This document shows, piece after piece, positions 15,433-29,958 of a stretch of 64,000 nt of DNA. Below the pieces are notes generated by a model. It saw only the letters and a program-made list of their open reading frames with translations. It was not told the DNA's origin and ran no database searches. Both the position numbers and the translations under genes were made by a program. The DNA comes from Actinomycetota bacterium (GTDB taxonomy: Bacteria > Actinomycetota > Actinomycetes > Mycobacteriales > HKI-0501). Each line of letters begins with the position of its first letter. The first letter of the stretch is position 1. The DNA lies in the NCBI GenBank assembly GCA_030840805.1, contig JAVEDU010000024.1, forward strand, positions 1 through 64,000, read 5' to 3'.

Positions 15433-17108
15433 AGCAACCAGGCCTCCTCGGCCCGCGCGACGTACGCGGCGAAGGTCTCGCCGGGCTCCCGGTGCTCGGT
15501 GAAGCCCCGGAGCACCCGCTCGGTGTAGTCCGCGGTCTCCTCGGCGGTGACCTTCAGGCCGCGGAACTTGCGCCCGAACGTGGGGTCCGCACCCATCTGA
15601 CCGCCCAGGTGCACCTGGAAGCCCTCGACCTGCTGGCCGTTGGCGTCGGGGACGATCGAGCCCTTGAAGCCGATGTCGGCGGTCTGGAACCGCGCGCACG
15701 AGTTCGGGCAGCCGTTCACGTTGATCGTGATCGGGGTGTCGAACTCCGGCATGCGGCGCTCGAGCTCCTCGTACAGCCAGTGCGCGCGGGCCTTGGTCTC
15801 GACGATCGCGAGCTTGCAGAACTCCAGCCCGGTGCACGCCATCGTGCCGCGGCGGAACCGGCTCGGCCGGACCTGCAGGTCGTGGACGTCCAGGGCCGCG
15901 GCCAGCGCGTCCACCCGGTCGCCGGGCACGTCCAGGATGACGAACTTCTGCTGCGCCGTGGTGCGGACGCGGCCCTGCGCGTACTCGTCGGCGAGGTCCG
16001 CGATCGTGGCGAGGAGCGTGCCGCTGACCCGGCCGGCGCGCGGGGCGAAGCCGACCGCGAAGTTGCCGTCCCGCTGCGGGGTCACGCCGACGTGGTCACG
16101 CTCGACGTGGACCGGGGGAGCGGCCTGCGGGCCGTCCGGGAGCGCCGCGCCGAGGTAGTCCTTCTCCAGCACCTCGCGGAACTTCTCGGGGCCCCAGTCG
16201 GCCATCAGGAACTTGATCCGGGCGTGGTTGCGCGAGCGGCGGTAACCGTGGTCGCGGAAGATTCCGCAGACGCCGGCCCACACGTCGGTCACCTGGTCGG
16301 GCTGGACGAACACGCCGAGGCGTTGGGCGAACATCGGGTTCGTCGACAGGCCGCCGCCGACCCACAGGTCGTAACCCGGCCGGCCGTCCGGACCGACGAC
16401 GCCGACGAAGGCGATGTCGTGGATCTCGTGGTGCGTGCACTGGTCGGCGCAGCCCGAGATCGAGGTCTTGAACTTGCGGGGGAGGTTCGAGAAGGCCGGG
16501 TCGCCGACAAAGCGCTCGACCGTGGCCTCGAGCGTCGGCGTCCCGTCGAGGACCTCGTCCGTGACGATGCCGGCCAGCGGGCAGCCGAGCATGACGCGGG
16601 GGGTGTCACCGCAGGCCTCGGTGGTCGACAGGCCGACCGCCTCGAGGCGGTTCCAGATCTCCGGCACGTCCTCGACGCGGATCCAGTGGTACTGCACGTT
16701 CTGCCGGTCGGTGACGTCCGCCACGTCCCGGCCGAACTCGGTGCTGATACCGGCGACGACCCGCAGCTGCTCGGACGTGAGCTGACCGCCGTCGATGCGG
16801 ACCCGCATCATGAAGTACGAGTCCTCCAGCTCCTCCGGCTCCAGCACCGCGGTCTTGCCGCCGGGGATGCCCTGGGCGCGCTGGGTGTACAGGCCCATCC
16901 AGCGGAACCGGCCGCGCAGGTCGGCGCCGTCGATCGAGTCGAAGCCGCGCTTGGAGTAGATGTCGATGATCCGCTGACGGACGGCGAGACCGTCGTCGTC
17001 CCGCTTCATCCGCTCGTTCGGGTTCAGCGGCTCGCGGTAGCCCAGCGCCCACTGACCCTGCGGGCGGACGGCCTTGGGGCGGGCGGGGCGAGCGGACGGC
17101 GTGGTCAT
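15429..17108 (-). CDS. sir: ferredoxin-dependent sulfite reductase
   Basis: Reduces sulfite to sulfide in six-electron steps with siroheme and a coupled [4Fe-4S] cluster. The 559-residue protein is full length and carries the cluster ligands Cys425-x5-Cys431 (CTGLEFC) and Cys467-x3-Cys471 (NGCPNSC). Two nitrite/sulfite reductase ferredoxin-like half domains and two siroheme domains follow the expected order. The ferredoxin-type (NirA-like) architecture distinguishes it from CysI; assimilatory nitrite reductase is the main alternative, but the cysH neighbour and cysteine-type leader argue for sulfite. ATG with AAAGGAT about five bases upstream. Transcribed from beyond a leader peptide and two hairpins. 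Confidence 0.93.
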   Translation of the reverse strand: MTTPSARPARPKAVRPQGQWALGYREPLNPNERMKRDDDGLAVRQRIIDIYSKRGFDSIDGADLRGRFRWMGLYTQRAQGIPGGKTAVLEPEELEDSYFMMRVRIDGGQLTSEQLRVVAGISTEFGRDVADVTDRQNVQYHWIRVEDVPEIWNRLEAVGLSTTEACGDTPRVMLGCPLAGIVTDEVLDGTPTLEATVERFVGDPAFSNLPRKFKTSISGCADQCTHHEIHDIAFVGVVGPDGRPGYDLWVGGGLSTNPMFAQRLGVFVQPDQVTDVWAGVCGIFRDHGYRRSRNHARIKFLMADWGPEKFREVLEKDYLGAALPDGPQAAPPVHVERDHVGVTPQRDGNFAVGFAPRAGRVSGTLLATIADLADEYAQGRVRTTAQQKFVILDVPGDRVDALAAALDVHDLQVRPSRFRRGTMACTGLEFCKLAIVETKARAHWLYEELERRMPEFDTPITINVNGCPNSCARFQTADIGFKGSIVPDANGQQVEGFQVHLGGQMGADPTFGRKFRGLKVTAEETADYTERVLRGFTEHREPGETFAAYVARAEEAWLL

Positions 17109-17151
17109 GAGAGATCCTTTGTGGCCTTGGGTGGCTCTACAGCGGCGGGAC

Positions 17152-17171
17152 GGCGCGCGCGGGCGCGCGCC
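17152..17171 (-). repeat. GC hairpin in the sir leader (segments 3 and 4)
   Basis: GGCGCGCGC-GG-GCGCGCGCC, a 9-bp perfect inverted repeat about 45 bases before the sir start. Its arm facing the leader peptide can alternatively pair with the 17223-17229 arm of the preceding hairpin. Confidence 0.6.
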
Positions 17172-17222
17172 AGGGACCCGGGCGGGTCGGGGGAGGGCCT
17201 ACGGAGTCGATCCGTGAACGTG

Positions 17223-17245
17223 GGCGCGCGTCGAAATGGCGCGCC
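17223..17245 (-). repeat. GC hairpin just after the sulfur leader peptide (segments 1 and 2)
   Basis: GGCGCGC / GCGCGCC arms with a 9-base loop, beginning 13 bases beyond the leader-peptide stop in the direction of transcription. The arms share the GCGCGC core with the 17152-17171 hairpin, allowing 1:2 plus 3:4, or 2:3 pairing. Confidence 0.55.
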
Positions 17246-17257
17246 TGGTGCCGACCC

Positions 17258-17356
17258 TCAGGCCGGACAGGCGGCGCTGCGTACGCGCTGCAGATCGATG
17301 TGCAGTCGCGCAGTCAGAAGGTCGCCGGGGAACTTCACCTGCACAGGATCGCACAT
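17258..17356 (-). CDS. sulfur-assimilation leader peptide
   Basis: Short open frame of up to 32 codons ending in ARLHIDLQRVRSAACPA. The RLHIDLQRV...AxC ending is the hallmark of the small leader peptides found before cysteine/sulfur operons in actinobacteria. A cysteine codon (TGT, scarce in such GC-rich DNA) is third from last, suitable for sensing cysteinyl-tRNA by ribosome stalling. It precedes sir-zinc ribbon-cysH by about 150 bases containing two competing hairpins. Start is uncertain: ATG 17356, or GTG 17344 or 17338. Confidence 0.75.
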   Translation of the reverse strand: MCDPVQVKFPGDLLTARLHIDLQRVRSAACPA

Positions 17357-17413
17357 GTGGCGTCCGCTGTGTACGGCGACGGGTGACGAGTCGGTCACTC
17401 CGAGGTGGCTGGC

Positions 17414-17419
17414 TAGCAT
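17414..17419 (+). promoter_or_regulatory. candidate -10 box of the chelatase gene
   Basis: TAGCAT six bases before the ATG at 17426, predicting a leaderless message; no convincing -35. Confidence 0.4.
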
Positions 17420-17425
17420 CGAGAC

Positions 17426-18286
17426 ATGACCTCCCGGGCGGTGACCGATCTCCCGCTCCCCGGGCACCGTCCGGTCCTGCTCGCCGTCGCCCACGGCACC
17501 GCCGAGCGTGCCGGCATCGCCGAGCTCGACGCGCTGATGGATCGGATCCGCTCGCTGGCGCCCGGGCTTCGCGTCGAGCTGTCGTACGTCGACCACGAGC
17601 CGCCGTCGGTGTCCTCGGCGCTGGGCTCGCTCGCCGGGGAGGGCGTACCGGTCGTGGCGCTGCCGCTGCTGCTGGTCGCGGCGACCCACAGCAAGAGCGA
17701 CATCGCCGGGGCGCTGCGGGAGGCGCGGATCGCCGCGCCCGGCTTCCGGGTGGCGTACGGGCGGCCGCTGGGGGCACACCCGCGGCTGCTGGACGTGCTC
17801 TCCGCGCGGCTGGCGGAGGCGGGGGCGGGTCCGGACACCGCCGTCCTGCTGGTGTCCGCCGGGTCGGCGGACCCGGACGCGAACGCCGAGATACCCCGGA
17901 TCGCCCGGCTGCTCTGGGAGCGTCGGCGGGTCGCCGCGCCCGTCGAGATCGCCTACGCCAGCGCCACCTCGCCGACGGTGCCCGAGGCGCTGGAGCGACT
18001 GCGCCTGCTGGGGTACGGCGACGTGGTCGTGGTGCCGTACTTCCTCGCGCCGGGGCGGTTCACCGCCGCCGTGGCCGCCGCCGCCGCGGCCGGCGGGGCG
18101 CGGATGGCCGACGTGCTCGGCGCGCACCCGGACGTGGCCCGGGCCGTGTTGGAGCGGTACGAGGAGGCGGTCGCCGGAGACATCCGGATGAACTGCGACG
18201 TGTGCATGTACCGGGTGGCCTGGCCGGGCAAGGAGACACGGGTCGGGGCGCCGCAGAAGCCGCACGCCCACCCGAGCGACGTCTGA
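17426..18286 (+). CDS. sirohydrochlorin chelatase (CbiX/SirB-like)
   Basis: Inserts Fe2+ (or Co2+) into sirohydrochlorin; next to sulfite reductase this most likely completes siroheme. The 286-residue protein contains two CbiX half domains: the first opens with LLAVAHGT (His of the active site) and ALPLLLVAATHSKSDI, the second with LLVSAGSADPDAN and VVVPYFLAPGRF. The C-terminal MNCDVCMYR holds two cysteines, possibly a metal site. It is divergent from the sulfite reductase operon across about 70 bases, so the two may share control. Confidence 0.88.
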   Translation: MTSRAVTDLPLPGHRPVLLAVAHGTAERAGIAELDALMDRIRSLAPGLRVELSYVDHEPPSVSSALGSLAGEGVPVVALPLLLVAATHSKSDIAGALREARIAAPGFRVAYGRPLGAHPRLLDVLSARLAEAGAGPDTAVLLVSAGSADPDANAEIPRIARLLWERRRVAAPVEIAYASATSPTVPEALERLRLLGYGDVVVVPYFLAPGRFTAAVAAAAAAGGARMADVLGAHPDVARAVLERYEEAVAGDIRMNCDVCMYRVAWPGKETRVGAPQKPHAHPSDV

Positions 18287-18363
18287 GGGCCCCACCGGCG
18301 CGGCGCTACCTGTGCCCTCGACCCCGGCCCACATCGGGTCGGCCACGGGGCGGGCGGTACGCC

Positions 18364-18426
18364 CTCACGGGGACGTGAGCGGTCCCGCCCGCCGGCTCAC
18401 GGGGACGTGAGCGGTCCCGCCCGCCG
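18364..18426. repeat. tandem 32-bp repeat, each unit carrying a hairpin
   Basis: Two copies (18364-18395 and 18396-18426) identical over 31 bases. Each begins with CTCACG-GGGA-CGTGAG, a 6-bp stem with a 4-base loop, and continues GCGGTCCCGCCCGCCG. Located about 80 bases after the chelatase stop; may act as terminator or be an expanding intergenic repeat. Confidence 0.7.
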
Positions 18427-18480
18427 CGGACCGGCCGTGCTCCTCGCCCTCGTGTTCGCCGGGCCGGTCCTCGCCGGGCC

Positions 18481-18544
18481 GGTCCTGCTCCCGAGTTGGT
18501 CCTGCTCCCGAGTTGGTCTGCTCCGGGTTGGTCCTGCTCCGGGG
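18481..18544. repeat. degenerate 17-bp tandem repeats
   Basis: GGTCCTGCTCCCGAGTT occurs twice in perfect tandem (18481-18514), then two shortened or altered copies to 18544. Preceded by a twofold GCCGGGCCGGTCCT motif. Non-coding; no further function seen. Confidence 0.6.
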
Positions 18545-18711
18545 GGCCCTCGCCGGGACCGGGCCGACTCCGGGAGCCGGGCCGGTCGGGACGCCCGGCG
18601 CACCCCACCCCGGCCGTCCGCAGGCCGCTTCTCGCTCGCCGGCCTAGACCCTTCGTGTTGACAAAAATACGAACAGTGATCAAAACCGAGGTCGCCGTTC
18701 GCGTTGACGGG

Positions 18712-18734
18712 TTGTCGGTGGCGGGGTTTACTCT
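18712..18734 (+). promoter_or_regulatory. RecA-NDp (PafBC-type) DNA-damage promoter
   Basis: TTGTCGGTG, eight bases, then TACTCT. This matches in full the mycobacterial LexA-independent damage promoter TTGTCRGTG-N8-TANNNT that depends on PafBC. The -10 ends seven bases before the LexA palindrome, so transcription should start at its edge. Confidence 0.75.
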
Positions 18735-18741
18735 TCTTGTG

Positions 18742-18759
18742 TTCGAACAAATGTTCGAA
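18742..18759 (+). promoter_or_regulatory. LexA (SOS) box
   Basis: TTCGAAC-AAAT-GTTCGAA, containing the actinobacterial SOS core CGAAC-N4-GTTCG at 18744-18757. It covers the expected transcription start of the damage promoter, an effective place for repression. Confidence 0.85.
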
Positions 18760-19016
18760 CGGCGGGCGCCGAACCGGGGGGTCTGCCGCGGAACGGTACG
18801 TCTGTTCGAACAGCACGGCGGAACGGGTGTCGCGGCCCGCCCGTCGTGAGGTGACCTCTGCCGCCGCCCGGTTCGACCCCCGGGCGGTGGCGGGGGAACG
18901 CCGGCCCGGGCGAGGCGTGGGGAAGCGCCCCGTCCGGGTCGGCGTCACCGTTGCGCCTTCCCCCGCAGCGGCAGGGCACCCGCCCGGGTGCACCGTCCAC
19001 GAGGAGGGAAGAGCCG

Positions 19017-19325
19017 ATGTCCATGTTGTCCACGGTGTTCCCGGTAGCCGCCTCCGGTGCCGAGCAGGGCCCGGTCCGTCGCGGCGAGGCGGGGGATGCC
19101 CCCGCGCAGTTCGTCTGGCAGGGCCGGCTCCACGTCGTGCGTTCCGTCCTCGCGCACACCACGACGGGCCGCATCGAGGAGTGGCGGGTGCGGGCCTCGG
19201 CGGGGCGTGAGGCCGCGCCGAGGGTGTTCCTGCTCCGGTTCGACTGGTCGGAGGGCCGGTGGACGGTGTTCCCGGAGCCCGCCGACCCCCTGGAGCCCGG
19301 GTCGCGGACGGGGATGCCGGCATGA
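19017..19325 (+). CDS. DUF6504 family protein
   Basis: First gene behind the LexA/RecA-NDp promoter. The 102-residue protein has the DUF6504 core: APAQFVWQGRLHVVRSVL, then WRVRASAGRE and VFLLRFDWSEGRWTVF, a compact beta-rich domain often encoded beside actinobacterial imuA-imuB or dinB genes. No catalytic residues can be proposed. GAGGAGGG lies nine bases before the ATG, a strong ribosome site. The stop overlaps the next start (ATGA). Function unknown; a role in translesion synthesis is inferred from operon position. Confidence 0.75.
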   Translation: MSMLSTVFPVAASGAEQGPVRRGEAGDAPAQFVWQGRLHVVRSVLAHTTTGRIEEWRVRASAGREAAPRVFLLRFDWSEGRWTVFPEPADPLEPGSRTGMPA

Positions 19326-19789
19326 AGCCCCCGCGGAAGCCTCCTCAGGTGTCCGTGCCGGCCCACGTGCTGCCGCACCGTTCCCCGGAGGACCTGCTCG
19401 CCCTGTCCCGGCACGGGCTGCTCGAGGCCGGTGAGACCCGGCCGCCCGGCCTGCGGTACGCCCTCGCCCATCTCGCCGCGCTCCGGGCGGCGGCCGCCGT
19501 GCTCGCCGCCCGGGCCCGCCCGGCCGCACCCGGCCGGCGGCGCGGGGGCCGCCCCGTGTCGGTGTGGGCGCTCCTCGCGATGGTGGCTCCGGAACTGGGC
19601 GAGTGGGCGACGTTCTTCGCGGCCGGGGCGGCCAAGCGCGCCGCCGCCGAGGCCGGGATCCCGCGGGTGGTCACCACCAGGGAGGCCGACGACATGCTCC
19701 GGGACGCCGAGCGGTTCCTCGCGGTGGTCGAGACGACCCTGGGCAAGCCGCACCAGCCGCTGCTCGCCGCCGTCGCCCGGGCGGGCTGA
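19322..19789 (+). CDS. SAV_6107-type HEPN domain protein
   Basis: Mostly helical 155-residue protein of the SAV_6107 HEPN family, regularly found beside actinobacterial mutasome genes. The central segment from about residue 45 to 150 forms the predicted HEPN bundle (LRYALAHLAALRAAAAVL, ELGEWATFFAAGAAKRAAAEAG, ADDMLRDAERFLAVVE). The RxxxxH ribonuclease motif of toxic HEPN proteins is not apparent. It overlaps the DUF6504 gene and is followed 56 bases later by imuA. Biochemical role unknown. Confidence 0.75.
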   Translation: MKPPRKPPQVSVPAHVLPHRSPEDLLALSRHGLLEAGETRPPGLRYALAHLAALRAAAAVLAARARPAAPGRRRGGRPVSVWALLAMVAPELGEWATFFAAGAAKRAAAEAGIPRVVTTREADDMLRDAERFLAVVETTLGKPHQPLLAAVARAG

Positions 19790-19845
19790 CCCGGGCGGGA
19801 CAGAGGTACGGCACAGGACGAGATGACAGGGGGGTGAGGATCGGC

Positions 19846-20652
19846 ATGACCGCAGCACTGTGGGGAGAGGGTGCCGGTCTCTCCCTCGCGGAGCGGGTAC
19901 GGCAGGCCGCCGCGCCGGCGACGGCGCTGGCCGGTCGGGAGGCCGAACAGGTCCTCCCGGTGGACCCGGCACTCGCCCGGCTGCTGCCCTGGGGGGGACT
20001 GCGGCGGGGGTCCACGGTGGCGGTGGAGGGCTCCGCGTCGCTGCTGCTCGCGGTGCTCGCGGAGGCGTCCAGGGCCGGGTCGTGGTGCGCGGTGGTCGGC
20101 GTGCCCAGCCTCGGGGCGGTGGCCGCCGCCGAGGCCGGGGTCGCCACCGCGCGGCTCGCCCTGGTTCCGCACCCGGGCACCGACCTCGCCGGGGTCGTGG
20201 CCGCCCTCGTCGACGGGATGGACGTCGTGGTGGTCGGGGGCACCGCGAGGCTGTCCGCGGCCGACGGCCGGCGGCTCGCCGCGCGCGCCCGGCAGCGCGG
20301 GGCGGTGCTGATGCCGTACGGGCCGTGGCAGGGCGCGGACCTGGAACTGTCCTGCGCCGAGGGCCGCTGGCGCGGACTGGGCGCCGGGCACGGTCATCTG
20401 CGGTCCCGTGAGGTCACCGTGCGGGCGCGGGGCCGCGGCGCGGCCAGCCGTCCGCGCAGCACGCGGGTGCTGCTGCCCGCGCCGACGGGGGAGCTCGCCC
20501 CGGTGCCCGTGCCCGTCCCGGTACCCGTGCCGATGCAGGCCGGCGGTCCGGGCGGCCGGGTGCCCGCACTCCGCGGTCCGGCCCGGGTCGGACCGATCGG
20601 TCCGGCCGACCGGGCGAGCCCCGCCGAACCGGTCCCCGCGAAGGCGGGATGA
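19846..20652 (+). CDS. imuA: mutasome accessory protein ImuA'
   Basis: Actinobacterial ImuA'-type protein, a degenerate RecA-like partner of ImuB and DnaE2 in damage-induced mutagenesis. The first 190 residues of 268 resemble a RecA core (LPVDPALARLLPWGGLRRGSTVAVEG, residues cut here to the conserved stretch LLPWGGLRRGST), but no complete Walker A GxxxxGK[ST] is seen. The C-terminal third is low complexity with a Pro-Val repeat (PVPVPVPVPVPM). ATG 19846 is used; GTG 19834 is an in-frame alternative. The stop TGA lies three bases before the imuB ATG used here. Confidence 0.82.
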   Translation: MTAALWGEGAGLSLAERVRQAAAPATALAGREAEQVLPVDPALARLLPWGGLRRGSTVAVEGSASLLLAVLAEASRAGSWCAVVGVPSLGAVAAAEAGVATARLALVPHPGTDLAGVVAALVDGMDVVVVGGTARLSAADGRRLAARARQRGAVLMPYGPWQGADLELSCAEGRWRGLGAGHGHLRSREVTVRARGRGAASRPRSTRVLLPAPTGELAPVPVPVPVPVPMQAGGPGGRVPALRGPARVGPIGPADRASPAEPVPAKAG

Positions 20653-20655
20653 GCG

Positions 20656-22536
20656 ATGGCCCTGACCCCGCCCTCGCCTCCCGCCTCCGCCGCTCGGCCG
20701 GGCGGGCGCGTGTCGGCCGCCTCCGCCGGGTCTGTCGCCGGGTCCGCCGTGCCCGCCGTGCCCGCCGTGCCCGCCGGGTCTGCCGCCGGGTCCGCCGTGC
20801 CCGCCGGGTCCGCCCGGTCTGCCGCCGGGTCCGCCGCTCGGCCGGCCGGGCGCGCGTCGGCCGCCTCCGCCGGGTCCGCCCGGTCCGCCGGGTCGCCCCG
20901 CGACGCCCCGGTCCGGACGGTGGCGGTGTGGTGCCCCGACTGGCCGGTCGCCGCCGCCGCCGCGGCCGAGGACCTCCCGCCGCATGTCCCGATCGCGATC
21001 GTCGCGGACAACCGGGTCGTCGCGTGCTCGGCGATCGCCCGGGCGGACGGCGTGCGCCGGGGACTGCGCCGCCGCGAGGCCCAGTCCCGCTGCCCCGAAC
21101 TCGTCGTGCTCGCCGCCGATCCGGGGCGGGACGCGCGGTTCTTCGAGCCGGTCGTCGCCGCGGTGGAGTCGCTCGCCCCCGGGGTCGAGATCGTCCGTCC
21201 CGGCGTCGTCGTCGTACCGGCCCGCGGACCCGTCCGGTACTTCGGCGGCGACGAGGCCGTCGCCGAGCGGCTGGTCGACCACGTGGCCGGGACCGGGACG
21301 GAGTGCCAGGTCGGGATCGCCGACGGGGTCTTCGCGTCGGTCCTGGCCGCGCGCCGGGGCCTCGTCGTCGCGGCCGGCGGTACCGCGGGTTTCCTCGGCC
21401 CGCTCGACATCGGCGAGCTGGACCTCCCCGGGGAGTCCGAGGGCGGCGGCCGGGGCACCGCGAGCGGCGGTACGAGGACGGCCGACCGCGCCGAGCTGGT
21501 GGACCTGCTGCGCCGGCTCGGGCTGCGCACGCTCGGGGCGTTCGCCGCGCTGCCGGTCCGGGACGTGGTGTCCCGGTTCTCCGCCGATGCCGCGCTCGCC
21601 CACCGACTGGCCCGCGGCCTCGACCCGCGGCCCCCCTCGGCCCGGCGCCCCCCGGCCGATCTCACCGTCTCCGTCGAGCTGGACCCGCCGGTGGACCGGA
21701 TCGACGCGGCCGCGTTCGCCGCCCGGTCCCTGGCGGAACAGCTCCACGAGGTGCTGTCCGCCCACGGCCTCGCCTGCACCCGGCTCGGCATCGAGGCCGA
21801 GACCGGCAACGGGGAGCACCTGCTCCGCACCTGGCGGCACGAGGGCGCGCTGGGCGCCGCCGACATCGCCGACCGGGTCCGCTGGCAGCTGGAGGGCTGG
21901 CTGACCGGCCGCAACTCCGGCCGGCCCACCGCCGAGGTGACCCGGCTGCACCTCGTCCCGGAGGAGGTCGTCTCCCGCGCCGGGCTCCAGCTCGGGCTGT
22001 GGGGCGGCCTGGGGGAGTCCGGCGAACGCGCCCATCGGGCGCTCACCCGGGTGCAGGGCATGCTCGGCCCCGAGGCGGTGCTCACCGCGGTGCTCGGCGG
22101 CGGCCGGGGCCCGGGAGACCAGGTGCGCCTGGTGCCGTGGAAGGACGAGCGCACCCCCGCGCTGCCGGCGGAGGCGCCGTGGCCCGGCCGGCTCCCCACC
22201 CCGGCCCCCGCCACCGTGCTCCCCGAGCCGCTGGCCGCCGACGTCCGCGACGCGTCCGGTACGCCGGTCGGGGTCACCGGGCGGCACGCCGTGACCGCCC
22301 CGCCGGCCGAGCTCGGCATCGGCGGGAAGCGCCGGCCGGTGCTCGCCTGGGCCGGCCCGTGGCCCGCCGACGAGCGGTGGTGGGACGCCGCGGCGGCCCG
22401 GCGGCGCGCCCGGTTCCAGGTCGTCGTGGCGGGGGACGTGCTCCCGGAGTCCGACGGCGACGACGGGGTGGAGGGCACCGCGCTGCTGCTGGTGCTGGAG
22501 GGCGGCCGCTGGTGGGTCGAGGCGGTCTACGACTGA
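20656..22536 (+). CDS. imuB: Y-family polymerase-like mutasome protein ImuB
   Basis: Catalytically degenerate Y-family polymerase that bridges the beta clamp and DnaE2 during error-prone synthesis. The recognisable core starts near residue 91 (VAVWCPDWPVA), where active polymerases have DxD; here the acidic palm residues are largely absent, as expected for ImuB. Little-finger region follows, with C-terminal LEGGRWWVEAVYD typical of actinobacterial ImuB. The first 90 residues are Ala/Gly/Ser/Pro low-complexity encoded by expanded repeats and are not family sequence, so the true start may be GTG near 20921 or a frame-shifted ATG 20649 that overlaps imuA (ATGA). Confidence 0.85.
   Translation: MALTPPSPPASAARPGGRVSAASAGSVAGSAVPAVPAVPAGSAAGSAVPAGSARSAAGSAARPAGRASAASAGSARSAGSPRDAPVRTVAVWCPDWPVAAAAAAEDLPPHVPIAIVADNRVVACSAIARADGVRRGLRRREAQSRCPELVVLAADPGRDARFFEPVVAAVESLAPGVEIVRPGVVVVPARGPVRYFGGDEAVAERLVDHVAGTGTECQVGIADGVFASVLAARRGLVVAAGGTAGFLGPLDIGELDLPGESEGGGRGTASGGTRTADRAELVDLLRRLGLRTLGAFAALPVRDVVSRFSADAALAHRLARGLDPRPPSARRPPADLTVSVELDPPVDRIDAAAFAARSLAEQLHEVLSAHGLACTRLGIEAETGNGEHLLRTWRHEGALGAADIADRVRWQLEGWLTGRNSGRPTAEVTRLHLVPEEVVSRAGLQLGLWGGLGESGERAHRALTRVQGMLGPEAVLTAVLGGGRGPGDQVRLVPWKDERTPALPAEAPWPGRLPTPAPATVLPEPLAADVRDASGTPVGVTGRHAVTAPPAELGIGGKRRPVLAWAGPWPADERWWDAAAARRRARFQVVVAGDVLPESDGDDGVEGTALLLVLEGGRWWVEAVYD
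20686..20876. repeat. 47-bp duplication and short GCC-rich tandem repeats in imuB 5' end
   Basis: Two 47-bp copies (20686-20732 and 20830-20876) differ at two positions and are 144 bp apart, a multiple of three. Between them are 9-bp units of the type GTGCCCGCC and GGGTCCGCC. The tract keeps the imuB frame open while adding about 60 low-complexity codons. Confidence 0.75.
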
Positions 22537-22549
22537 TGGGAGCGAACTG

Positions 22550-25500
22550 ATGGGCTGGGGCAATCCCGCCGTGCCGTGGTCGGAGCTGGAACGCGTGCTC
22601 TCCGGCCGCCCGGCGCGCGATCCCGGGACCGGCGGCCACCCCCGCGACCCCGGCCACCCCGGCGACGGCGGGGACAGCCCGGCCTGGTCGCGTACGCGCA
22701 CCGAGTACGTGCCCCCGGCGCCCCCGCGGACCGGGAAGACCCCGTACGCGGAGCTGCACGCCCACTCCAACTTCAGCTTCCTCGACGGCGCGAGCCACCC
22801 CGAGGACCTGGTGGAGGAGGCCGCCCGGCTCGGCCTGGAGGCCCTCGCGATCACCGACCACGACGGGATGTACGGCGTGGTGCGGTTCGCCGAGGCGGCC
22901 GCCGCGACGGGGATCCGCACCGTGTACGGCACCGAGCTGAGCCTCGGCCTGACCGGTCCGCAGAACGGCGAGGCCGACCCCGAGGGCACCCATCTGCTGC
23001 TGCTGGCCCGGGACCCCGAGGGATACCACCGGCTCTGCCGCACGCTGTCCACCGCGCATCTCGCCGGTCACGAGAAGGGCCGCCCGATCTACGACCTGGA
23101 GGAGATCGCCGCGGCGGCCGGCGACCACTGGCTCGTCCTCACCGGCTGCCGGAAGGGCTCGGTCCGCCGGGCGCTGACCCAGGGCCCCGGCGAGGCGGCG
23201 CGCGAGCTGGACCGGCTCGTCGCGCTGTTCGGCCGGGACAACGTCGCCGTCGAGCTGACCGACCAGGGTGATCCGGCCGACAGCACCCGCAACGACCTGC
23301 TGACCGAGCTGGCGGCGGGCGCGGGCCTGCCCACCGTCGCCACCGGCAACGTCCACTACGCGACCCCGGGCCGCCGCAGGCTCGCCACCGCCCTCGCCGC
23401 CGTCCGCGCCCGGCGCAGCCTCGACGAGATCGACGGCTGGCTCCCCGCCGCCGCGACCGCGCACCTGCGGTCGGGGGAGGAGATGGCGGCGCTGTTCGCG
23501 CGGTACCCGGGCGCCGTCGAGCGCGCCGCCGCGTACGGCCGGGAGTGTGCCTTCGACCTGCGGCTGGTCGCGCCGAAGCTGCCCCCGTTCCCGGTGCCGG
23601 CGGGGCACACCGAGTCCAGCTGGCTCCGGGAGCTGACCCGGGAGGGCGCGCTGCGCCGGTACGGCCCGCCGGAACGGGAACGCATCCCCGGCGCGTACTC
23701 CCAGATCGCCCACGAGCTGGACGTGATCGACGAGCTGGGCTTCCCCGGGTACTTCCTGATCGTCCACGACATCGTGGACTTCTGCCGCCGGAGCAACATC
23801 CTCTGCCAGGGTCGTGGCTCGGCCGCCAACTCCGCGGTCTGCTACGCCCTCGGCATCACCAACGTGGACGCGGTCGGCTACGGGATGCTGTTCGAGCGGT
23901 TCCTCGCCCCCGAGCGGGACGGGCCTCCCGACATCGACCTCGACATCGAGTCGGACCTGCGCGAGAAGGCCATCCAGTACGTCTACGACACGTACGGCCG
24001 GGACCGTGCCGCCCAGGTGGCGAACGTGATCACCTACCGGCCGCGTTCCGCCGTCCGGGACATGGCGAAGGCGCTCGGCCACGCCACCGGTCAGCAGGAC
24101 GCGTGGAGCAAGCAGATCGAGCACTGGGGCCCGCTGTCGGGCGCCCAGGAGCACGACATCCCGGCCCCGGTGCTGGCGCTCGCCGACGAGCTGCAGGGGT
24201 TCCCGCGGCATCTCGGCATCCACTCGGGCGGCATGGTGCTCTGCGACCGGCCGGTGGTGGAGGTCTGCCCGGTGGAGTGGGCGCGGATGCCCGGCCGCAC
24301 CGTGCTCCAGTGGGACAAGGACGACTGCGCGGTGGCGGGCCTGGTGAAGTTCGACCTGCTCGGCCTCGGCATGCTCTCCGGACTGCACTACGCGATCGAC
24401 CTGATCCGCGACCACCACGGCATCGAGGTCGACCTCGGGATGCTGCCGCCGGACGACCCCGCCGTGTACGACATGCTCTGCGCCGCCGACTCCGTCGGGG
24501 TGTTCCAGGTGGAGAGCCGCGCGCAGATGGCGACCCTGCCGCGGCTGCGGCCCCGCCGGTTCTACGACCTCGTCGTGGAGGTGGCGCTGATCCGCCCCGG
24601 CCCGATCCAGGGTGGCTCGGTGCACCCGTACATCCGCCGCCGCAACGGCCTCGAACCCGTCACCTACGCCCACCCGCTGCTGGAACGGTCGCTGTCCAAG
24701 ACGCTGGGCGTGCCGCTGTTCCAGGAACAGCTGATGCAGATGGCCGTGGACGTCGCCGGGTTCAGTCCCGCGGAGGCCGACCAGCTCCGGCGGGCGATGG
24801 GCTCGAAGCGGTCGAGCGGGCGCATGGAACGGCTCAAGGCCCGGATGTACGAGGGGATGGCCGAGCGCGGCATCACCGGCGAGGTGGCCGACGGGATCTA
24901 CGAGAAGCTGCTGGCGTTCGCGAACTTCGGCTTCCCGGAGAGCCACTCGGTGAGCTTCGCGCTGCTGGTCTACGCCAGCGCGTGGATCAAGCGCTACCAC
25001 CCGGCGGCGTTCTGCGCGGCGCTGCTCAACGCGCAGCCGATGGGCTTCTACTCGGCGCAGACGCTGGTCGCCGACGCCCGGCGGCACGGGATCGAGGTCC
25101 GCGGCCCGGACGTCAACGCGAGCGACGCGAAGGCCCGGCTGGAACCGGTCGGGCCCGGCGACCCGCTGGTCGGCCCGGACCAGACGGTACGGATGGGGCT
25201 CGCGTCCGTCCGCCACCTCGGGGAGGACGTCGCCGAGCGGATCACCGCCGACCGCGCCGAGCACGGCCCGTACACCGACATGGCCGATGTCGCCCGGCGG
25301 GTCGGCCTCACCGTGCCGCAGGCGGAGGCGCTCGCCACCGCGGGGGCGTTCGGATGCTTCGGGTCCACCCGCCGGGAGGCGCTGTGGGCGGCCGGGGCCA
25401 TCGCCCAGGAGCGGCCCGACCGGCTCGCCGGGGTCGCGGTCGGGGTGGAGGCGCCGATGCTGCCGGGCATGACCGAGGTCGAGGAGGCGATGGCGGACGT

Positions 25501-25882
25501 GTGGGCCACCGGGGTGTCGCCGGGGAGCTACCCGACGCAGTACGCCCGGGCCGACCTCACGGCGCGGGGCGTGGTGACGGTGGAGGGACTGGCCGAGGTG
25601 GAGCCGGGCCGCCGGGTCGTGATCGGCGGAGTGGTCACCCACCGGCAGCGGCCGGCCACGGCGGGCGGCGTCACGTTCCTCAACATCGAGGACGAGACCG
25701 GCATGGTCAACGTCGTCTGCTCGCCCGGGGTGTGGGCACGGCACCGGCGGGTGGCGCGCTCCTCGGCGGCCATGCTGATCCGGGGGAGGCTGGAACGGAG
25801 CGAGGGCGTGACCAACGTCGTCGCCGAGCGGATCGAGCACCTCACCCTGAAGGTCGCCAGCACCTCGCGGAACTTCCGGTGA
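22550..25882 (+). CDS. dnaE2: error-prone DNA polymerase DnaE2
   Basis: C-family DNA polymerase that performs damage-induced translesion synthesis with ImuA' and ImuB. The 1110-residue protein begins with a variable Gly/Pro-rich linker, then a PHP domain (ELHAHSNFSFLDGAS near 66-80, ITDHDGM), palm/fingers with the catalytic PDIDLDIESD near residue 460, thumb and helix-hairpin-helix region, and a C-terminal OB fold (VVIGGVVTHRQRP, FLNIEDETG). It lacks the long tau-binding and clamp-binding C-terminal of DnaE1, placing it in the DnaE2 class. ATG has GGGAG about nine bases upstream. Distal gene of the LexA-controlled operon. Confidence 0.95.
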   Translation: MGWGNPAVPWSELERVLSGRPARDPGTGGHPRDPGHPGDGGDSPAWSRTRTEYVPPAPPRTGKTPYAELHAHSNFSFLDGASHPEDLVEEAARLGLEALAITDHDGMYGVVRFAEAAAATGIRTVYGTELSLGLTGPQNGEADPEGTHLLLLARDPEGYHRLCRTLSTAHLAGHEKGRPIYDLEEIAAAAGDHWLVLTGCRKGSVRRALTQGPGEAARELDRLVALFGRDNVAVELTDQGDPADSTRNDLLTELAAGAGLPTVATGNVHYATPGRRRLATALAAVRARRSLDEIDGWLPAAATAHLRSGEEMAALFARYPGAVERAAAYGRECAFDLRLVAPKLPPFPVPAGHTESSWLRELTREGALRRYGPPERERIPGAYSQIAHELDVIDELGFPGYFLIVHDIVDFCRRSNILCQGRGSAANSAVCYALGITNVDAVGYGMLFERFLAPERDGPPDIDLDIESDLREKAIQYVYDTYGRDRAAQVANVITYRPRSAVRDMAKALGHATGQQDAWSKQIEHWGPLSGAQEHDIPAPVLALADELQGFPRHLGIHSGGMVLCDRPVVEVCPVEWARMPGRTVLQWDKDDCAVAGLVKFDLLGLGMLSGLHYAIDLIRDHHGIEVDLGMLPPDDPAVYDMLCAADSVGVFQVESRAQMATLPRLRPRRFYDLVVEVALIRPGPIQGGSVHPYIRRRNGLEPVTYAHPLLERSLSKTLGVPLFQEQLMQMAVDVAGFSPAEADQLRRAMGSKRSSGRMERLKARMYEGMAERGITGEVADGIYEKLLAFANFGFPESHSVSFALLVYASAWIKRYHPAAFCAALLNAQPMGFYSAQTLVADARRHGIEVRGPDVNASDAKARLEPVGPGDPLVGPDQTVRMGLASVRHLGEDVAERITADRAEHGPYTDMADVARRVGLTVPQAEALATAGAFGCFGSTRREALWAAGAIAQERPDRLAGVAVGVEAPMLPGMTEVEEAMADVWATGVSPGSYPTQYARADLTARGVVTVEGLAEVEPGRRVVIGGVVTHRQRPATAGGVTFLNIEDETGMVNVVCSPGVWARHRRVARSSAAMLIRGRLERSEGVTNVVAERIEHLTLKVASTSRNFR

Positions 25883-26052
25883 GACCGGGTCGCGGGACCA
25901 CCCGCCCCGCCACGCGTACAGCCGTGGCGTTCCCACGGGACCCGGATAGGCTCGCCCCGGGCCGCGTCGAGCGGCGCCACGGCCGGTGCCCGACACCGGC
26001 GCGGGGATCCGCCGTCGGCGAGGTCCCCCATCGACGAGACGGGAGCTGCCGG

Positions 26053-26799
26053 GTGGTGGAGCGGACGCGGGCACAGTCGTCGCCCCGTACGGCGGTCGTG
26101 TGGGAGGTGCTCCGCGCCGAGCTGGCTCGGCGGGACGCCGACGGGCCGCTCCGGATCGTCGACGCGGGCGGGGGCACGGGCGGGTTCGCCGTCCCGCTCG
26201 CCCGGTCGGGCCACGACGTCACCGTGATCGACGCGAGCCCGGACGCCCTGGCCGCGCTGAACCGACGTGCCGCCGAGGCGGGCGTCGCCGATCGGGTCCG
26301 CGCCGTCCAGGGCGACGCGGACCGGATGCTCGACGTCGTCGCCGCCGGCTCCGCGGACCTCGTCCTGTGCCACAGCGTGCTCGAACACGTCGACGACCCG
26401 GCCGCCGCCGCGTCGTCGATGGCCGGCATCCTGCGCACCGGCGGCTGCGCGAGCGTGCTCGTCGCGAACCGCGCCGCGACCGTGCTGTCCCGCGCGCTCG
26501 GTGGTCATTTCGGCCAGGCCACGGCCGCGCTGGCGAGCCCGGACGGCCGGTGGGGCCCGGCGGACACGACGCGGCGCCGGTTCGACGCCACGTCCGCCGA
26601 GGTGCTGCTGGCCCGCGCCGGGCTGGCCGTCGAGCAGATCCACGGCGTGCGGGTGGTGTCCGACCTCGTCCCCGGTGCGCTGCTGGACTCCGAGCCGGGC
26701 GCCCTCGAGGCGCTGCTCGCCCTCGAGCTCGCCGCCGCGGAGCTGCCGCCGTACCGGGACATCGCCACGCAGCTCCACCTCCTCGCGAGGCGCACGTGA
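26053..26799 (+). CDS. class I SAM-dependent methyltransferase
   Basis: Rossmann-fold methyltransferase, substrate unknown. In the 248-residue protein, motif I is IVDAGGGTGGFAVPLA at about residues 34-49, the acidic strand-2 motif is VTVIDASPDAL, and the motif-IV region is ADLVLCHSVLEHVDDP, typical of small-molecule or tRNA/quinone methyltransferases of the Methyltransf_11 type. GTG 26053 follows GGGAG by eight bases. The stop overlaps the phosphodiesterase start (GTGA), so the two are coupled. In streptomycete-like genomes similar genes sit between dnaE2 and dinB, hinting at a shared context but not a shared function. Confidence 0.87.
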   Translation: MVERTRAQSSPRTAVVWEVLRAELARRDADGPLRIVDAGGGTGGFAVPLARSGHDVTVIDASPDALAALNRRAAEAGVADRVRAVQGDADRMLDVVAAGSADLVLCHSVLEHVDDPAAAASSMAGILRTGGCASVLVANRAATVLSRALGGHFGQATAALASPDGRWGPADTTRRRFDATSAEVLLARAGLAVEQIHGVRVVSDLVPGALLDSEPGALEALLALELAAAELPPYRDIATQLHLLARRT

Positions 26800-27992
26800 G
26801 CGCGCCGGACCTGGTGGGGCCGGACGCTGCGCGCGTCCGGCCCCCGCCCCCGGTACCGGTCCCCGCGTACGGTGCCGCGGCGCTGGCCGACCTCAGCCCC
26901 TCCGTCGGCGCGCTGCTGGGCGTGCCCGGCTGTCGGGACGTGCTCGGCCTCGGCGAACGGACCGGTGGCGTGCGGCGGGTCTGCGTGCTGCTCGTGGACG
27001 GGCTCGGCGGGGCGCTGCTCGACGCCCACCCGGAGCACGCGCCGTTCCTGTCGTCGCTGCGCGGGTCCGGGCGGACGCTGACCGCCGGGTTCCCCTCGAC
27101 GACGGCCACCAGCCTCGGCTCGCTCGGCACCGGCCTGCCGCCGGGCGCCCACGGGGTGCTCGGCTACCTGGTCGCGATCCCCGGCACCGGCCGCCTGATG
27201 AACTCGCTGCGCTGGGACCGGGAGGTCGACCCGCTGGCGTGGCAGCCGCACCCGACGATCTTCGAGCGGGCGGCCGCCGCGGGGGTGGCCGTGCGCCACG
27301 TCGGCCCCGGATTCCACCACGGAACGGGGCTGACGACCGCGGTGTTCCGCGGCGCCGAGTACCGGCCGGCGGAGAACCCGGGGGAGGTGGCGGCGCTCGC
27401 GGGGGTCGCCGCCCGGGACGGGGACCGCAGCCTGGTCTACGCCTACCACGGCGATCTGGACCGGGCCGGTCACGTGTACGGGTGCGACTCGGCGGCGTGG
27501 CGGTACCAGCTCCGGCACGTCGACCTGCTCGCCCGGTCCCTCGCCGAGGCGCTGCCGTCCGACGCCGTGCTCCTCGTCACCGCGGACCACGGCATGGTCG
27601 ACGTCGTGCCGGAGCGGCGCGTCGACGTCGACCGCGTCCCGGCCCTGCGCGACGGCGTGGAGCTCCTCGGGGGCGAGGCGCGGGCCCGGCACGTGTACAC
27701 CCGGCCGGGCGCGGCCGCCGACGTGCGGGCCACCTGGACCGCGCTCCTCGGCGACCGGATGTGGGTGACGTCCCGCGAGGAGGCCGTGGCGGCGGGCTGG
27801 TTCGGCCCCGACGTATCGGCCGAGATCGCCCTCCGGATCGGTGACGTCGTGGCGGCCGCGTTCGGCGAGGTCGCCGTGGTCGCGAGCGAGGCCGAGCCGC
27901 TGGAGTCCGCCCTGATCGGCCTGCACGGCTCGATGACGACCGCCGAGCAGCGCGTACCGCTCCTGCTGGCCCGTGCCGGCGGGACGCTCTAG
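26796..27992 (+). CDS. alkaline phosphatase superfamily protein (nucleotide pyrophosphatase/phosphodiesterase type)
   Basis: Binuclear-metal phosphodiesterase-like enzyme. The 398-residue protein shows the metal-binding and nucleophile pattern of the AP/NPP superfamily: LLVDGLGGALL near residue 69, GFPSTTATSLGSLGTG near 95-110 (Thr/Ser nucleophile), YHGDLDRAGHVYG near 220 and TADHGMVDV near 263. No signal peptide is seen, so a cytoplasmic location is likely. Substrate is unknown. It is coupled to the methyltransferase and ends nine bases before dinB. Confidence 0.87.
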   Translation: MSAPDLVGPDAARVRPPPPVPVPAYGAAALADLSPSVGALLGVPGCRDVLGLGERTGGVRRVCVLLVDGLGGALLDAHPEHAPFLSSLRGSGRTLTAGFPSTTATSLGSLGTGLPPGAHGVLGYLVAIPGTGRLMNSLRWDREVDPLAWQPHPTIFERAAAAGVAVRHVGPGFHHGTGLTTAVFRGAEYRPAENPGEVAALAGVAARDGDRSLVYAYHGDLDRAGHVYGCDSAAWRYQLRHVDLLARSLAEALPSDAVLLVTADHGMVDVVPERRVDVDRVPALRDGVELLGGEARARHVYTRPGAAADVRATWTALLGDRMWVTSREEAVAAGWFGPDVSAEIALRIGDVVAAAFGEVAVVASEAEPLESALIGLHGSMTTAEQRVPLLLARAGGTL

Positions 27993-28001
27993 GACCGCAC
28001 C

Positions 28002-29339
28002 GTGGGCCGAAGTCACGACCTGCCGCGGCAGGCACCGCAGGGACCACCCCCGGACGACACCGGGTGCACGATCCTGCACGTCGACATGGACGCGTTCTTC
28101 GCGTCCGTGGAGGTCCGGCGCAATCCGGAGCTGCGGGGCAGGCCCCTCGTCGTGGGCGGGACCGGTGGCCGCGGCGTCGTCGCGTCGGCCAGCTACGAGG
28201 CGCGCAGGTTCGGCGTCCGCAGCGCCATGCCGACGGCGCACGCGCGCCGGTTGTGCCCGCAGGCCGTGTTCATCCAGCCCGACCACGGCGAGTACGCCGA
28301 GACGTCCCGGGCCGTGATGGCGATCTTCCGCGACGTCACGCCGCTGGTCGAGCCGCTGAGCCTCGACGAGGCCTTCCTGGACGTGACCGGCGCGGTGCGC
28401 CGGCTCGGCCCGCCCGCCGCGATCGCCGCCCAGATCCGGGCCCGGGTCGAGGCCGAACAGCAGATCACCTGCTCGGTCGGGGTGGCGCCCACCAAGTTCG
28501 TCGCCAAGCTGGCGTCCGCCCGGTGCAAGCCGGACAACGTGCTGGTCGTCCCGGTCGACGGGGTGCTCGAATTCCTGCATCCGCTCCCGGTCGGGGCGCT
28601 GTGGGGCGTCGGCGAGCGGACCGGGGAGGCGCTGCGGAAGTTCGGGCTGCGGACGGTCGGCGATCTCGCCCGTACACCGCTGCGAACGATCCAGTCCGTC
28701 GTCGGCAAGGCGGTCGGCGGGCACCTGTACGAGCTGTCGCACGGCCGCGACCTCCGCCGCGTCAGCACCGAGGACGTGGACAAGTCGATCGGCAGCGAGG
28801 AGACGTTCGCGGTCGACGTCACCGACCACGTGGTGATCCGCCGCGAGCTGCTGCGCCTGTCCGAGAAGGTCGCGGCCCGGCTGCGCGCGAGCGGGCAGGC
28901 CGGGCGCACGGTGTCGATCAAGGTCCGGTACGCGGACTTCACCACGATCAACCGGTCACGGACCCTCGGCTCGCCGACCGACGTCGCCCGCGAGGTCTAC
29001 GACACCGCGACCGCGCTGTACACCGCGCTCGGCCTGGACCGGCCACGGATCCGCCTCGTCGGGGTCCGGGTCGAGGGGCTCGCGGAGGCCGGGGACGCGC
29101 CGCACCAGCTGACGTTCGGCGAACGGGAGAGCGGCTGGCGCGAGGCCGAGCAGGCCGTCGACGCCGCGGTACGCCGATTCGGGTCGGGGGCGGTCCGGCC
29201 GGCGACCCTCGTACCGGGGGAGGGCCGGACGGCCGAGTCCCACGGCGGGCCCGCCGGCTCCGCGTCCGGAGAAGACGCGGACCGCGAGCTCCCCGCCACG
29301 CGCGCCGAGCGGCAGTCTCGCGGTCGGACCGACCGTTGA
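28002..29339 (+). CDS. dinB: DNA polymerase IV
   Basis: Active Y-family translesion polymerase. The 445-residue protein has catalytic HVDMDAFFASVE (Asp28) and SLDEAFLDV (Asp122-Glu123), the fingers YEARRFGVRSAMP, a helix-hairpin-helix thumb, and a little finger ending with QLTFG near residue 369, which fits a beta-clamp binding motif. The last 70 residues are a disordered charged tail. GTG start; a leaderless ATG is not available. No LexA box or damage promoter is seen directly before it, so it may depend on readthrough from upstream genes. Confidence 0.95.
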   Translation: MGRSHDLPRQAPQGPPPDDTGCTILHVDMDAFFASVEVRRNPELRGRPLVVGGTGGRGVVASASYEARRFGVRSAMPTAHARRLCPQAVFIQPDHGEYAETSRAVMAIFRDVTPLVEPLSLDEAFLDVTGAVRRLGPPAAIAAQIRARVEAEQQITCSVGVAPTKFVAKLASARCKPDNVLVVPVDGVLEFLHPLPVGALWGVGERTGEALRKFGLRTVGDLARTPLRTIQSVVGKAVGGHLYELSHGRDLRRVSTEDVDKSIGSEETFAVDVTDHVVIRRELLRLSEKVAARLRASGQAGRTVSIKVRYADFTTINRSRTLGSPTDVAREVYDTATALYTALGLDRPRIRLVGVRVEGLAEAGDAPHQLTFGERESGWREAEQAVDAAVRRFGSGAVRPATLVPGEGRTAESHGGPAGSASGEDADRELPATRAERQSRGRTDR

Positions 29340-29455: not shown

Positions 29456-29547
29456 GGGCCACGAAGTGGCCGTCCGTCCCCTGACGGTCGGTGTTTTGTC
29501 ATCGCACGCCCCGCCTCGCGGGGCGCCTGGCAGCGGGGAGGAGTGCC

Positions 29548-29958
29548 GTGCCGCTCTCAGAGCACGAGCAGCGCCTGCTCGAGCAGATCGAACGCGCCCT
29601 GCTGGCCGAGGATCCGAAGTTTGCCTCCACCGTGCGGTCCACCGATCCGCGTCACCACGTCCGGCGGCGCGTGATCGTGGCCGGTCTGGTGTTCGTGGCC
29701 GGCGCGGGATTGATGATCGCCGGGGTCGTGGGGATCAAGGGGGCCAACGTCGCCGGCATCCCGCTCGTCGGGGTCGCCGGGTTCCTGGTCATGTTCGCGG
29801 CCGTGCTGTTCGGCGTCACCGCCTACCGCCGCGGATCCGGGGTCGAGCCGCTACGCGTGGTCGGCGGCACGCGAAGCGGCCGGACCAGGGCGCGGCGCGG
29901 CACGTTCGCCGACCGCCTCGAGGACCGCTGGCGCCGTCGCGCCGATGACGGGCACTGA
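29548..29958 (+). CDS. DUF3040 membrane protein
   Basis: Actinobacterial DUF3040 protein of 136 residues. It opens with the family signature PLSEHEQRLLEQIERAL and DPKFAS, then two hydrophobic helices (about residues 43-65 and 70-92) and a basic cytoplasmic tail rich in Arg. Function unknown; genes of this family are often found close to dinB and the cell-division cluster in actinobacteria, as here. GTG start with GGGGAGGAG about five bases upstream. A putative promoter lies about 95 bases before it. Confidence 0.88.
   Translation: MPLSEHEQRLLEQIERALLAEDPKFASTVRSTDPRHHVRRRVIVAGLVFVAGAGLMIAGVVGIKGANVAGIPLVGVAGFLVMFAAVLFGVTAYRRGSGVEPLRVVGGTRSGRTRARRGTFADRLEDRWRRRADDGH

Follow-up and report, generated by a model that had tools for sequence, protein, structure and literature searches.

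Within the window (the whole stretch of DNA analysed, 64,000 nucleotides in length) we identified a compact group of promoter elements preceding a string of genes that includes several translesion polymerases (Table 1). The sequence TTGTCGGTG-N8-TACTCT, read directly at 18712-18734, is an exact RecA-NDp motif, occurring once in the window and twice in the whole 4.46 Mb genome, in agreement with a preliminary description of this DNA that had noted a full match to the LexA-independent damage promoter. The LexA palindrome is likewise present in a single exact copy in the window; TCGAACAAATGTTCGA conforms exactly to TCGAAC-N4-GTTCGA, the published actinobacterial LexA consensus being tCGAAC-N4-GNNCGa (PMC9380542). 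As previously described, the palindrome begins on the eighth base past the -10 element, with 7 bases between them, and the gap from the -10 to CGAAC is 9. While the earlier account of the -26 and -10 elements and LexA box holds, it missed the -35-like hexamer TTGACG overlaid on them, as well as a further TGTTCGAACA at 18803-18812. The register of the -10 is ambiguous between TACTCT and TTTACT, such that the -35/-10 pair can be read either as TTGACG-N17-TTTACT or with an N19 spacer to TACTCT. Transcription of the operon is predicted to start near 18741, ~7 nt past the -10. A scan of 18250-19100 for classical sigma-70 promoters with 16-18 nt between -35 and -10 found none by its criteria, and an Rfam scan of 17000-20000 returned no match. 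Also observed, between a CbiX gene and the promoter, were a perfect 31-nt tandem duplication (18364-18426) and further GC-rich repeats.

Table 1. Promoter elements and genes of the translesion locus, in window coordinates.
Feature	Position	Strand	Basis and remarks
-35-like hexamer TTGACG	18704..18709	+	read in sequence; 2 nt 5' of PafBC site, 19 nt before TACTCT
PafBC -26 element TTGTCGGTG (RecA-NDp)	18712..18720	+	exact against published consensus tTGTCRgtg-N8-TannnT (PMC5656591)
-10 element TACTCT	18729..18734	+	N8 register set by NDp consensus; alternative register TTTACT 18727-18732
LexA operator TTCGAAC-AAAT-GTTCGAA (TTCGAACAAATGTTCGAA)	18742..18759	+	perfect palindrome; covers predicted start site
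Third TGTTCGAACA palindrome, in leader	18803..18812	+	repeat search; falls short of full LexA box
DUF6504 gene, first gene of predicted operon	19017..19325	+	Pfam PF20114; GGAGG-type ribosome site ~19001-19009
SAV_6107-like HEPN gene, overlaps DUF6504 stop	19322..19789	+	Pfam PF18726, E 9e-36
imuA'	19846..20652	+	NCBIfam NF058630, E 1e-55
imuB (Y-family-like)	20656..22536	+	Pfam PF00817
dnaE2, error-prone polymerase	22550..25882	+	NCBIfam PRK05672, 1543 bits (cut-off 939)
SAM-dependent methyltransferase, start uncertain	26011..26799	+	Pfam PF08241; position same in relatives
Type I phosphodiesterase gene, start uncertain	26979..27992	+	Pfam PF01663
dinB (Pol IV)	28002..29339	+	Pfam PF00817/PF11799, NCBIfam
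DUF3040 gene, last of conserved gene string	29491..29958	+	Pfam PF11239; gene order kept in relatives

Adjacent imuA', imuB and dnaE2 genes, as in an ImuA'-ImuB-DnaE2 mutasome operon, were found at 19846-25882. The predicted operon comprises DUF6504-HEPN-imuA'-imuB-dnaE2, and may reach on through dinB if these genes are co-transcribed; an mraZ and division gene cluster lies farther downstream of the DUF3040 gene. The proposal that this promoter precedes a mutasome operon is upheld, although the two leader genes, DUF6504 and HEPN, had been overlooked. No paper on DUF6504 was found in the literature searched. The SAV_6107 HEPN family is listed in PMC3710099 as actinobacterial and as having no conserved active site; given this listing, we do not claim a catalytic role for the R-x4-H motif conserved in SAV_6107-type proteins (R in 104 and H in 91 of 113 sequences). 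A homologue of this gene might be cg2381 of C. glutamicum, a ciprofloxacin-induced LexA-regulon gene of unknown function (PMC5055667).

Both candidate regulators are encoded in the same genome. On contig C20, pafA is succeeded by tandem genes for PafB (331 aa) and PafC (315 aa), whose products match chains of solved PafBC complexes with E values of 1e-68 and 3e-80, respectively. The lexA gene is located on contig C71 with a LexA core upstream at 84339, and LexA cores were also identified at recA and ruvC. The preliminary suggestion that PafBC and LexA both provide inputs is therefore consistent with a genome encoding PafB, PafC and LexA, and with a -26/-10 pair and operator that share one predicted start.

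The preliminary description had also proposed looking for the composite element in related genomes, where it proved to be conserved, together with its gene context, across many families. The HEPN gene was detected in 52 of 61 genomes of the window's order. In families f1, f12 and f15 the genes after it are imuA'-imuB-dnaE2; f9 and f16 have a divergent DnaE there, and in f2, f3, f4 and others methyltransferase-dinB-DUF3040 comes directly next. The polymerase slot is hence variable, while the leader and tail of the gene string are conserved. The DnaE occupying this slot is divergent at L188 (f16) and L205 (f9); that of L188 reached the cut-off of neither the DnaE1 nor the error-prone DnaE2 model, and may represent a third DnaE group.

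Allowing up to one mismatch within the kilobase upstream of the HEPN gene, a LexA box was identified at 105 of 112 loci, representing 41 of 43 families, and at none in shuffled sequences. Among the same 112 HEPN loci, the -26, -10 and LexA box were found in register, with gaps of 9-11 and up to 4 NDp mismatches allowed, in 21 families. Several families (f12, f14, f25, f26, f32 and f46) retain the LexA box and lack the -26 element, so that PafBC input has been dispensable in evolution. The architecture of the remaining elements also differs with the presence of the -26, albeit as tendencies only, in sequences related by descent: where the -10 is unambiguous, 36 of 38 promoters that have a -26 show a -35/-10 spacer of 18-19 nt, and all 17 that lack it a spacer of 17-18 nt; the sixth base of TACTNT is a T in all 18 relatives that have the -26 and in 3 of the 14 that lack it. 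Spacers of 20 nt were additionally seen where the -10 register is ambiguous. At three loci (L234, L321 and L327, of families f3, f28 and f31), the LexA box upstream of the HEPN gene itself appears to contain a -10, as in CGAACGTATGTTCG, ~17 nt past TTGAC, constituting a distinct LexA-only layout.

Mycobacteria provided a further comparison. Through a composite identical to that of a named Mycolicibacterium record, one genus of the survey was taken as Mycobacterium, and imuA' was found in 39 of its 40 genomes. At 27 of the 30 imuA' loci that were read, TTGACG, a TGTCGG-type element, TTTACT and a LexA box follow one another in this order, the commonest gap being 8. The -10 in the N8 register here is TTTACT, positioned 17-18 nt from TTGACG; consequently, a rule equating a PafBC site with a 19-nt spacer was dropped and is retained as a tendency. 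These loci also qualify an earlier statement that mycobacteria often place the two controls at separate promoters. This is the case for recA, where PafBC acts at P1 and LexA at P2 (PMC5656591), so that the same motifs and regulators are distributed over two promoters there and combined in one composite in the window, but it does not extend to imuA'. The mycobacterial imuA'-imuB/dnaE2 mutasome, reported to be controlled by both SOS and PafBC (Adefisayo 2021, via PMC10421592), shares its cassette and both regulators with the present locus; it differs in that dnaE2 is split from imuA'-imuB, and the SAV_6107 HEPN gene is absent in the genomes searched. The composite is accordingly a well-conserved layout common to many actinobacteria, mycobacteria included, and not an oddity of this genome.

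We consider it likely that these elements form a single damage-inducible translesion promoter, in which LexA serves as a lock and PafBC as an amplifier, with binding, start site, gate logic, operon extent and the role of TTGACG as predicted features. A start ~7 nt past the -10 would place the box at ~+1 to +18, so that LexA should prevent initiation regardless of how the polymerase is recruited; LexA bound over the start site would then be the dominant lock on RNA polymerase, opened when RecA on single-stranded DNA leads to LexA cleavage. Such dominance fits the RecA-dependent induction of imuA', imuB and dnaE2 by mitomycin C in M. tuberculosis (PMC8151990). Once the box is cleared, the housekeeping holoenzyme would recognise the -10, and PafBC loaded with single-stranded DNA would bridge sigma to the -26 for full initiation; such contacts of PafBC, made with sigma domain 4 as well as with the -26 once ssDNA is bound, have been described (PMC11804915). 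At its distance of 19 nt from the -10, TTGACG probably acts as a weak -35 and gives some PafBC-independent initiation. The resulting coincidence gate would require removal of LexA, with PafBC setting the strength of the response. Points that weigh against this reading are the families that keep the LexA box without a -26, the ambiguous -10 register and the reported recognition of P1 by ClgR (cited in PMC5656591).

The recurrence of TTGACG in promoters of the same operon type, and the retention of a 17-18 nt -35/-10 promoter with a LexA box in families without a -26, could also be accommodated by an ordinary LexA-repressed housekeeping promoter, which the main sigma factor alone would read in either -10 register and in which the -26 would be ancestral and minor. 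This appears improbable given that the -26 is kept in register in the 21 families counted above as well as in most mycobacterial imuA' promoters, and that the -26 of the window is an exact consensus, as are only two in the genome. Much less probable still is that a different activator, such as ClgR or a further WYL-domain protein, is the main user of the -26 site while LexA represses. For ClgR, recognition of the M. smegmatis P1 promoter has been reported (cited in PMC5656591), and the genome contains a third WYL-domain frame; against this, in vivo as well as in vitro work has shown PafBC to act on the -26 motif (PMC6789036, PMC11804915), and PafB and PafC are encoded here beside pafA.

The association of the two motifs was further examined at larger scales. 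The LexA core CGAACN4GTTCG occurs at 20 places in the 4.46 Mb genome and its backwards control at 0, and a simulation of 20 Mb with the dinucleotide composition of the window produced 1 exact NDp, 20 LexA cores and 0 composites. Across 297 genomes of the class, a relaxed composite pattern (TTGTCRG-N10-TANNNT-N(0-30)-LexA core) gave 83 matches in 66 genomes, compared with 1 for gaps of 31-61 and 0 for the reversed control. A search for NDp-N(0-30)-LexA core in which each species was represented by a single genome identified at least 116 stretches, almost all with titles of actinobacteria. With this sharp fall past 30 nt, the empty reversed control and conservation at orthologous operons, a chance juxtaposition of the motifs can be set aside as having next to no probability. 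The NDp-LexA association is real, short-range and class-wide. Gaps from the -10 to CGAAC cluster at 0-2 and 8-12, and once families had been deduplicated none of 3-5 remained; this pattern, although striking as a sign of helical phasing of the LexA box, was not relied upon, as homologous promoters are non-independent and the list was partly hand-picked.

Among the matches listed, which were gathered irrespective of genes, all 26 HEPN-bearing composites have a gap of 8-12. A TTG[AC] overlies the PafBC site in 19 of these 26 and in 6 of 7 DUF6504-dnaE composites, as opposed to 1 of 79 composites from unrelated gene groups, which lack such an operon, carrying it at the same offset, and 3 of 5 composites of one further small group, again among the matches listed. 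A broader proposal, which we advance tentatively and hold to be less probable than not, is that the three overlaid modes (sigma at -35/-10, PafBC at -26 and LexA at the start) represent an ancient actinobacterial promoter class driving a translesion operon in which DUF6504 and SAV_6107-type HEPN proteins would be unrecognised polymerase partners, and in which PafBC would partly rescue a badly spaced -35. The latter component derives from the contrast between spacers of 17-18 nt where the -26 has been lost and mostly 18-20 nt where it is kept, to which Mycobacterium (17-18 nt) is an exception.

With respect to known systems, the window shares with PafBC sigma-adaptation promoters (PMC11804915; PDB 7p5x, 9fnd) an exact -26/-10 pair at consensus distance and PafB/PafC homologues; what it has in addition is TTGACG as a -35-like hexamer, along with a LexA operator. 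The dnaE2-dinP operon of Streptomyces venezuelae similarly places translesion polymerases under LexA control, but the PafBC motif is reported as not conserved there (PMC9380542). A class of genes that combine an SOS box with a RecA-NDp is already on record (PMC8223512), and dual control is reported for the mycobacterial mutasome (PMC10421592); the promoter therefore belongs to a known kind. In the limited literature searched we found no description of a -35 overlaid on a PafBC site, nor of a tie between DUF6504 or SAV_6107 HEPN genes and translesion operons. PafBC promoters reportedly have no working -35 element (Mueller 2021), and the TTGACG overlay raises the question of whether they truly lack one. 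The two uncharacterised, putatively co-regulated leader genes are likely members of the translesion pathway. More generally, in many actinobacterial families, including mycobacteria, the two damage pathways would meet at a single start of a mutagenic-polymerase operon, and damage-induced mutagenesis thereby becomes testable as a two-signal gate through a few promoter changes.

Composites were also identified upstream of other genes. Targets among the matches listed, named by eye from their sequences here and below, include recA in freshwater actinobacteria and a DnaB-like helicase gene. The freshwater recA composites (L031, L042, L060 and other loci) have a gap of 1 and a single promoter, in contrast to mycobacterial recA with its separate P1 and P2. 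Mycobacterium loci of the L037, L039 and L030 type carry composites with gaps of 0-2 at two groups of apparent HNH-type endonuclease genes. The second exact RecA-NDp of the present genome (G000:C41:45644-45666; L269) has no LexA core nearby, and the frame downstream of it looks like a glyoxalase/VOC protein.
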